Shown here one piece after another: positions 5,328 through 7,995 of a DNA stretch of 64,000 nucleotides. The translations under genes were made by a program, and so were the position numbers. Position 1 is the first letter of the stretch; each line of letters opens with the position of its first letter. This DNA is from Magnetococcales bacterium (lineage in GTDB: Bacteria > Pseudomonadota > Magnetococcia > Magnetococcales > JADFXB01), in NCBI GenBank assembly GCA_015233935.1, contig JADFXB010000007.1:1-64000 (forward strand), written 5' to 3'. The notes beneath the pieces were generated by a model that was given only the letters and a program-made list of their open reading frames with translations, was not told where the DNA came from and did no database searches.

Positions 5328-5807
5328 ATGCTGTTTAAACGACGTGATAATGAGCTGGGCAAAGGCTATCAGGATGGGGAGTTCATCTTCCGACAAGGAG
5401 AGATGGCCACCTGCCTTTACATTATTCTGGAAGGACAGGTGGAGTTGATCACTGGCGGTGACGCGCCACTGCTTCTGGATGTCTTGGGGAAAGATGACAT
5501 GTTTGGAGCCATCTCCCTGTTCGACGGCCTGCCCCGCCCCGTCAGTGCCCGCGCCCGTGGTTCCGCCAGGGTGTTGACCATGGATAAAAAAATTTTCATG
5601 CAACGCCTGGATGACGATCCCAGCCTCACCTATCGAATTCTGGAAAACATGGCCCTGCGCACCCGTCGCTACATAGACGAACTGGTCAGCTTAAAACGAT
5701 CCCTGGCCTGCGATGCCCTGGCTGAACAAATGGTGGGGCGTCCCGCCGACAATGGGGAAACCCCGTGCGACCAGCATATTCCTTTTTTATCAAATGAAAT
5801 TCCTTAA
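5328..5807 (+). CDS. Cyclic nucleotide-binding domain protein without an obvious DNA-binding domain
   Basis: GEFIFRQGEMATCLYIILEGQVELI...LGKDDMFGAISLFDGLPRPVSARARGSARVLTMDK. Confidence 0.8.
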   Translation: MLFKRRDNELGKGYQDGEFIFRQGEMATCLYIILEGQVELITGGDAPLLLDVLGKDDMFGAISLFDGLPRPVSARARGSARVLTMDKKIFMQRLDDDPSLTYRILENMALRTRRYIDELVSLKRSLACDALAEQMVGRPADNGETPCDQHIPFLSNEIP

Positions 5808-6224
5808 TTGTTCTCTTTTAACCCTTTCTCATGGAATTTAGTGCGCATAGGGAAAAATAGCTTGTTGTAAGGATAAAAAATTAATAAAATTTACCAGCCT
5901 AAGTTAAATATGTATGATTTCAGATAGTTCTTGATTCAGAGAGGCTTTATCCAAACTGACCTTTTATTTGGAACTCATATCTGCTATTGCGTCAGCGTGT
6001 CATACACTACACAATAGGATCCTGATGGGAAAATGGATTTCAACCTGTCGCAAAGTAAGCTAACTATACTGAATTAGTCATATCTATATTTTTGAAAATG
6101 CAAGAATGTCCACTATGATTAATCTGGGTAAGTTTATATTTTCAGTACTCATTATATTGATATCACGAGTTACATGCTAGTCTCTTAATGGTGGATTTTT
6201 GACTTTTTGCAGGGGACTTAAAGA

Positions 6225-7127
6225 ATGACCAATATCGGTGCAATCCCACCCGGCCAACCGCTTGCAGAGGTTTTTGGATTCCCAGTAAATAATCACTCAT
6301 CAGAGGCAGCCAGACACCGCTATGCCCGGCTTTGTCCGTTCAACAATAAGGTTCCTAATTGTACTAAAGACAAAGCTATTGACCCTTTGGGCGTTTGTTC
6401 CATTTTTGATTCTCCAGGGGAGGCCACAATCATATGTCCGGTGCGATTTCGTGAAAAATGGATTATTGCCGAGGATGCTGCAGCATTCTTTTTTCCAAAC
6501 AACACTTCGTGGACGTCATTAACAGAGATTCGACTTAAAGATGGTAATGGCTTATCAGCGGGCAATATCGATTTAGTTCTTGTTTCTTATGATGATCGCG
6601 GAAGGCTTATTGATTTTGGCTCTTTGGAAGTGCAGGCTGTGTACATTTCCGGCAATGTTCGCAATCCATTTAATCATTATATGAGCAATGTTAAAGTAAA
6701 CGCTTTACAGCCTTGGAAAGGTATTAATTACCCAAGATCTGATTATCTTTCCTCATCTAGAAAAAGACTTGCACCACAACTCCTTTACAAAGGGGGTATT
6801 TTTCATAACTGGAGGAAGAAGCAAGCGGTAGCATTACACAAGTCTTTCTATGCTACCTTGCCTACACTGCCCGAAGTAAGCCCTTCCGAAGCTGATATAG
6901 CGTGGTTCCTCTATAGTTTGGAACATGATACGACTACTAATCATATCAATTTAAAACGGTATAAGACTATTTACACAGCATTTGAACCTGCCTTACTCAA
7001 AATCACCACAGCCCCTGCCGGACCTATTGAGGAATTTATCACCCATCTTCAAGACCGACTGAATGATCGTCTCACGCCGCCTGATGCTCCGACTTTGCAA
7101 GATATTCTTGGCGGGAAAAATCTCTAA
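6225..7127 (+). CDS. NotI-like type II restriction endonuclease
   Basis: AEVFGFPVNNHSSEAARHRYARLCPFNNKVPNCTKDKAIDPLGVCSIFD...ICPVRF resembles, from memory, the N-terminal Cys4 metal-site region of NotI; later IDFGSLEVQAVYISG resembles the PD-(D/E)XK catalytic strand (E-X-Q); next to a DNA methylase. Confidence 0.78.
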   Translation: MTNIGAIPPGQPLAEVFGFPVNNHSSEAARHRYARLCPFNNKVPNCTKDKAIDPLGVCSIFDSPGEATIICPVRFREKWIIAEDAAAFFFPNNTSWTSLTEIRLKDGNGLSAGNIDLVLVSYDDRGRLIDFGSLEVQAVYISGNVRNPFNHYMSNVKVNALQPWKGINYPRSDYLSSSRKRLAPQLLYKGGIFHNWRKKQAVALHKSFYATLPTLPEVSPSEADIAWFLYSLEHDTTTNHINLKRYKTIYTAFEPALLKITTAPAGPIEEFITHLQDRLNDRLTPPDAPTLQDILGGKNL

Positions 7128-7995
7128 AGATCAGTAACTCTAACATTTCCTTGTGATGAGTGTTTTTCATGGGAACGCTATCAACAAGGAATCCGTGCTG
7201 CGTTGCCATGTGGCGTACAGATTCAGAGTCATCATAAGTCATCATAAAATCGCCTGTCGCCCTCCGACATAATGAAAACAGATTATCATGATCAATTTCT
7301 GAATACCGGTACAATCTCCTTCCAGCGCGTTTCCCAGGTGCTGTATACGGGGGATCAATAAAGTATGCAACGTCCCTACAGCAAAGTGTTTTTTCCAAAT
7401 ATATAACCCCATCTCCTTCAATGAAGGTGATACGGTCCCGCAATGAAAACAATTCACGAATACGCTTTGCTAAAGTATTGGGATACCATCTAGAGGAAAT
7501 ACCTTTGCCGTTTTCACCATGCTTTAAGACACCACTGCCAGGAGCGAGTATACCCCCGTGATTTGTCCGATTCCTCAAAATGGTTTGGAAAGCATGCTCC
7601 TGAACAGATTTCGTTTTAAGTGCCAGCGTGGCTTGCACGTTTTCAACTGTCAATTTAAAGCCTAATATCGTTTCAGCCAACCACTCGGAATTATCGCTAA
7701 AAATTGTGTGCCATACGGCGGCAACGTCTGGATCAAGCTCTATCATGGTGACATGATCGGCCAACCGTTCATTTGCAACAGTTAGGCTAATTATCCCTCC
7801 CCCTGCAAAAGGCTCAATAAGTTCGGATGGCCTAGTTTTTTTGCCGGAAAGCCATTTACGGATTTCTGGAACAAGCCATGTTTTTCCCCCTGGATAACGG
7901 AAAGGGCTTAATTGCGGTATCGAGGCAACATTGACTATGCACCTGTTATGATGTAGTTGTGTGGCTTCAAATTTTGATATTTGTTTCCTATTCAT
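7072..7995 (-). CDS. D12-class (Dam-like) N6-adenine DNA methyltransferase
   Basis: FRYPGGKTWLVPEIRKWL, EPFAGGGIISL, DPPYTAPGKRAGRRLYRY (DPPY motif). Confidence 0.9.
   Translation of the reverse strand: MNRKQISKFEATQLHHNRCIVNVASIPQLSPFRYPGGKTWLVPEIRKWLSGKKTRPSELIEPFAGGGIISLTVANERLADHVTMIELDPDVAAVWHTIFSDNSEWLAETILGFKLTVENVQATLALKTKSVQEHAFQTILRNRTNHGGILAPGSGVLKHGENGKGISSRWYPNTLAKRIRELFSLRDRITFIEGDGVIYLEKTLCCRDVAYFIDPPYTAPGKRAGRRLYRYSEIDHDNLFSLCRRATGDFMMTYDDSESVRHMATQHGFLVDSVPMKNTHHKEMLELLIFRDFSRQEYLAKSEHQAA

Follow-up and report, generated by a model that had tools for sequence, protein, structure and literature searches.

The window analysed here, a stretch of 64,000 nucleotides from a Magnetococcales bacterium (contig JADFXB010000007.1, positions 1 to 64,000), carries two convergent genes that overlap at their tails. 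A NotI-family restriction endonuclease gene, recognised from its open reading frame, its PF12183 match and a Foldseek match to NotI, occupies positions 6225-7127 of the plus strand (300 aa, ATG start, a Shine-Dalgarno-like AGGGGA about 9 nt upstream of the ATG). On the minus strand, a gene for a D12-class adenine-N6 DNA methyltransferase (MTase) spans 7072-7995 (307 aa, ATG at 7995, preceded by AGGGGAC). The tail-to-tail overlap covers 56 bp (7072-7127). An initial annotation, made by a model from the sequence alone, had reported these reading frames, strands and overlap, and all were confirmed. The neighbours, as read from the open reading frames, are a cyclic-nucleotide-binding-type gene and a cytochrome c maturation cluster.

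NotI, a rare cutter in everyday use, has an unusual iron site, and the resemblance of the plus-strand product to its N-terminal region had been proposed. The motifs quoted in that proposal (AEVFG..V....SEAAR, LCPF, NCTKDKA, GVCSIF and ICPVRF) are present in the translation, and the HMM check gave a PF12183 NotI match with an E-value of 2.6e-54 and 184.5 bits against a curated cut-off of 22 (Pfam), aligning nuclease residues 27-241 with profile positions 6-236 of 238. An unrelated fold had been named as the finding that would speak against the proposal; the predicted structure (mean pLDDT 85.5) matched NotI (3c25/3bvq) in a Foldseek search of the PDB with E-values of 6.7e-11 to 5.6e-9 and TM-scores of 0.64-0.66 by query. 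The NotI entries were the sole matches with E <0.001, the next one having E 0.037. Searches of the PDB with the single nuclease sequence (direct phmmer) and with a subfamily profile of 39 close relatives retrieved no NotI match at E up to 1, so that the link to NotI required either the fold or a wider profile. The latter, built from 17 family members with plasmid branches included, matched NotI chain 3bvq with E 9.8e-6, in an alignment covering AE-FG, EAAR, CPF, GVC, CP-R and the D...E-x-Q active site. NotI (PDB 3bvq/3c25, PF12183; site GCGGCCGC) and the window nuclease have Pfam family, fold and N-terminal motifs in common, whereas NotI is longer (383 versus 300 residues), shows only about 16% identity when the structures are aligned, and differs in that the partner in the window is a D12 adenine MTase.

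The candidate active site, a variant of the PD-(D/E)xK type, lies at 6570-6635 on the plus strand and consists of D116 (6570-6572), E135 (6627-6629) and Q137 (6633-6635). All three residues were invariant across 39 relatives and aligned with the D...E-x-Q of NotI; a plasmid relative shows the same arrangement. In NotI itself, Q replaces the usual K of the active site, and a Cys4 iron site is also present (PMC4081073). The four-cysteine region of the window nuclease, a candidate metal site at 6333-6437 (+), comprises C37 (6333-6335), C46 (6360-6362), C58 (6396-6398) and C71 (6435-6437). These cysteines were invariant in the 39 close relatives and, together with the D and E, also among 17 proteins reaching down to 26% identity. 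The region aligns with CPF...C...GVC...CP of NotI, the second cysteine being shifted by about two columns from its NotI counterpart in the wider-profile alignment; within the core of the structural model, confidence is lowest at residues 41-51, in the loop between C37 and C58. By analogy with NotI, the metal held there would be iron.

As a family, D12 enzymes act on adenine. The minus-strand product, METHYLTRANSFERASE (ORF 7072-7995), had been called a Dam-like D12 MTase with a DPPY motif. Its class and motif were borne out (PF02086, E 4e-10, 40.3 bits versus a cut-off of 22; Pfam), but it falls far short of the TIGR00571 cut-off for the Dam subfamily, with 33.4 bits versus 114.85 (NCBIfam). 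By comparison with Dam-type enzymes, FRYPGGK (residues 32-38; 7882-7902, minus strand) corresponds to the AdoMet-binding motif X and was invariant in 36 relatives. AdoMet-binding motif I is EPFAGGG (residues 61-67; 7795-7815, minus strand), of which E61, F63, G65 and G66 were invariant and the remainder was kept in most of the 36 relatives; the catalytic motif IV, DPPY (residues 214-217; 7345-7356, minus strand), was again invariant in them. By sequence, the only solved relative was 7m6b (profile E 5.6e-12), and the top PADLOC model was PD-Lambda-5_B (E 1.1e-40), above the Type II MTase models. MTases 50% (L089, 3977-4861) and 42% (L090, 3974-4915) identical to that of the window sit on Bdellovibrio and Deinococcus plasmids beside no NotI-family gene; on the Bdellovibrio plasmid a PHP/PolIII-alpha-like gene precedes that of the MTase.

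A scan of one genome per species yielded 175 relatives, of which the best 80 (nuclease 56-91% identical) were kept. Three of them, with contig ends beside the nuclease, were left out of the pairing count, and in all 77 testable ones a homologous D12 MTase (48-80% identical) adjoined the nuclease, indicating that the pairing is no accident. Furthermore, pairwise distances of nuclease and MTase were correlated (r 0.937; mirror-tree, 75 pairs), showing that the two proteins co-evolve, and this linkage and co-evolution mark the D12 MTase as the partner of the nuclease. The convergent pairing singled out at the outset holds for the window, though the tail-to-tail layout proved to be a minority one: 73 of the 77 relatives are co-directional, with the nuclease first and the genes mostly no more than a few bases apart, and only four (L002-L005) share with the window an inverted MTase overlapping the nuclease tail by 21-56 bp (the same 56 bp in L002, 21-30 bp in L003-L005). 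The convergent group formed a single clade in both protein trees of the 75 pairs, with support of 99/91 and 100/99, indicating that this gene order arose once. Antisense control has been described for some other R-M systems (PMC3874152), and the overlap of the convergent tails in the window may provide such control. The pair is spread over at least 15 phylum-level bacterial lineages, including Pseudomonadota, Thermodesulfobacteriota, Nitrospirota, Acidobacteriota, Planctomycetota, Deinococcota, Chloroflexota, Verrucomicrobiota, Bacteroidota, Chlorobiota and several candidate phyla, with a full-strength match in about 1-8% of the genomes per sampled phylum. Besides Thermus brockianus and Variovorax, Pyrinomonas methylaliphatogenes, Roseivirga ehrenbergii and Algoriphagus faecimaris are among the carriers.

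The cassette is foreign to its surroundings in composition, with about 43% GC (GC3 0.37-0.40) compared with 55% GC (GC3 0.57-0.68) in the flanking genes. Signs of mobility were found among its relatives. In the closest one, L002, direct repeats of 69 bp (5744-5812 and 7786-7854, 91% identical) flank the R-M cassette and are probably a long target duplication; flanking repeats were also sought at the window's own cassette and none were found. Other copies reside on plasmids, beside an integrase (L127) or near an Abi-type gene (L128). In a 16-kb virus-like contig (L129, 1-15146) the R-M pair lies between the primase and major capsid genes. The gene set of this contig, with portal and terminase genes besides those for primase and the major head protein, and its size are suggestive of a phage satellite that forms capsids. 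The window also contains an imperfect inverted repeat (5984-6017), some 210 bp upstream of the nuclease, with a counterpart that likewise precedes the nuclease in L002 (5883-5912, ATTGTGTC...GACACAAT). Common to two Magnetococcales-type cassettes, it is possibly an operator or an old cassette edge.

That NotI-type enzymes are not usually described with a D12 MTase, as the initial annotation had stated, is true of other branches, in which the family members on Sedimenticola, Pseudomonas and Xanthomonas plasmids adjoin cytosine methyltransferases, but not of the window's own branch, where a D12 partner is the rule, as it is for some members of one other branch. X. oryzae PXO99A has a NotI/EagI homologue that adjoins a cytosine-5 MTase, and its disruption has been proposed to explain why transformation became easier (PMC4853030). 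Such cytosine-5 systems (Pseudomonas and Xanthomonas plasmids, PXO99A) also place the nuclease beside an MTase and keep the same invariant Cys and D/E residues as the window, but their MTase gene is upstream and their nuclease is only about 26% identical. A member of the window's branch is found on the Thermus brockianus plasmid pTbrSNM4-1c (nuclease 55%, MTase 53% identical), where the genes are co-directional with a 14 bp overlap; NCBI labels them, each separately, NotI family restriction endonuclease and DNA adenine methylase. In the pairs of pEST4011 and of Variovorax and Aeromonas plasmids, the MTase is about 52% identical to that of the window and has a NotI-family nuclease immediately upstream, but this nuclease is only about 27% identical. 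The nuclease of Paraburkholderia pBN5 is 82-85% identical to the pEST4011 and Aeromonas plasmid nucleases, and its partner is a cytosine-5 MTase with a Vsr gene (loci compared: L086, 2416-5227, versus L087, 2980-5128, and L084, 1817-3956). Should such similar nucleases have one site in common, their protection by a cytosine MTase in one case and an adenine MTase in others would place both A and C in it. The proposal that the recognition sequence of the window system contains an adenine was a reasonable one, and it is strengthened by this natural exchange of partners.

Taken together, the cassette is most likely a mobile restriction-modification system of Type II whose site contains an A. We put at roughly 0.87 the probability that it is a complete, horizontally acquired system of the NotI-fold branch which methylates an adenine-containing site and cuts that site when unmethylated. 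The MTase would place an N6-methyl group on the adenine of a short, probably palindromic, site in the host DNA, which would block cutting there, and the NotI-like nuclease would cleave the same site through its D...E-x-Q active site in unmethylated incoming DNA, presumably that of phages and plasmids. As in NotI, the N-terminal Cys4 element of the nuclease would hold a DNA-binding fold that a metal stabilises. The identification as an R-M system made in the initial annotation is well supported by homology, active-site conservation, fold and linkage; the observation itself was confirmed and its interpretation, overall, was partly supported. The combination of a NotI relative with an adenine methylase constitutes a new branch within a known R-M type. 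We found no description of a NotI-family nuclease with an adenine MTase in the open literature that was searched, and the family members that we found described go with cytosine methylation. There is about an even chance, in our judgement, that this NotI-fold branch has shifted to an A-containing, m6A-protected site and that the wider family swaps adenine for cytosine methylases (with Vsr) while keeping the target. If true, a new restriction specificity would be gained, and partner exchange could be studied in a natural experiment. With adenine methylation as its protection, a widespread NotI branch would offer new specificities built on one scaffold, and with nucleases 82-85% identical beside a cytosine or an adenine methylase, the question of how an R-M system switches protection without host death becomes directly testable.

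A relative of XorII was considered as a lead to the recognition site of the window system; the literature searched showed only that X. oryzae harbours XorII and, separately, the NotI/EagI homologue (PMC4853030). We also looked for palindrome avoidance, initially in 0.85 Mb of flanks from 80 relatives and then in 1.55 Mb from 84 genomes with the system versus 0.98 Mb in 60 stretches of genomes that lack it, using 4-mers, 6-mers and 1,072 further palindromes of 4 to 8 bases, mostly gapped. The controls were only roughly phylum-matched, and close relatives were compared as well. In these comparisons numerous palindromes were mildly avoided and none stood out clearly, and we propose no recognition site from them. 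GATC, CTCGAG, GTCGAC, GGCGCC and GCGGCCGC were avoided more in genomes with the system, the last with the strongest relative depletion among 8-mers (O/E 0.43 versus 1.16 in controls, z -4.0). In the window, CGGCCG does not occur at all (about 21 expected), and CTCGAG, GTCGAC, GGCGCC, AGCGCT and GAGCTC are likewise at zero; most of these missing palindromes, AGCGCT excepted, are avoided as well by related genomes that lack the system. The host lineage avoids palindromes generally.

The depletion of the NotI site and the missing CGGCCG would favour a nuclease that cuts a G+C-only, NotI/EagI-like site, with a D12 enzyme that either protects it by N4-cytosine methylation or is no true partner. However, the 8-mer signal is unconvincing with about 1,000 motifs tested, and relatives that lack the system are likewise poor in CGGCCG. 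Furthermore, DPPY and the D12 classification point to adenine, linkage and co-evolution tie the MTase to the nuclease, and an adenine MTase as partner makes a G+C-only site unlikely, so we regard this reading as very improbable. A decayed or domesticated system, in which one gene is inactive or the nuclease has turned into a DNA-binding protein, does have precedents: in genomes G393 and G439, NotI-like paralogues without a methylase have E-x-H or D-x-H in place of E-x-Q. In the window, however, both reading frames are full length and neither protein has lost an invariant residue, which makes decay very improbable here.

It is extremely unlikely that the pair belongs to the PD-Lambda-5 defence system rather than to classical R-M. 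PD-Lambda-5 includes a related D12-type MTase component (PMC9519451), and its B model is the best PADLOC match of the window MTase; however, the neighbouring protein is a NotI-type nuclease with no match to the PD-Lambda-5_A model. Membership was rejected with component A absent and only the B-like MTase present.

NotI-like paralogues of this kind lie at L107 4990-6063 (+) and 6825-8162 (-), L108 4948-6423 (+) and 6931-8220 (-), and L110 5738-7141 (-). They are about 48-52% identical over the shared part and carry an N-terminal extension with a weak DUF2383/ferritin-like match. There is no cognate D12 MTase anywhere in G393 and G439, and the D12 genes of G507 are all unrelated. The active site is altered in four of the five, that of L110 being intact, and the SSSRKRL motif is degraded. 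In two genomes the paralogues form a convergent pair whose synteny is conserved, with aminopeptidase-P-like and holB-like genes on either side, and they look like a domesticated restriction enzyme.
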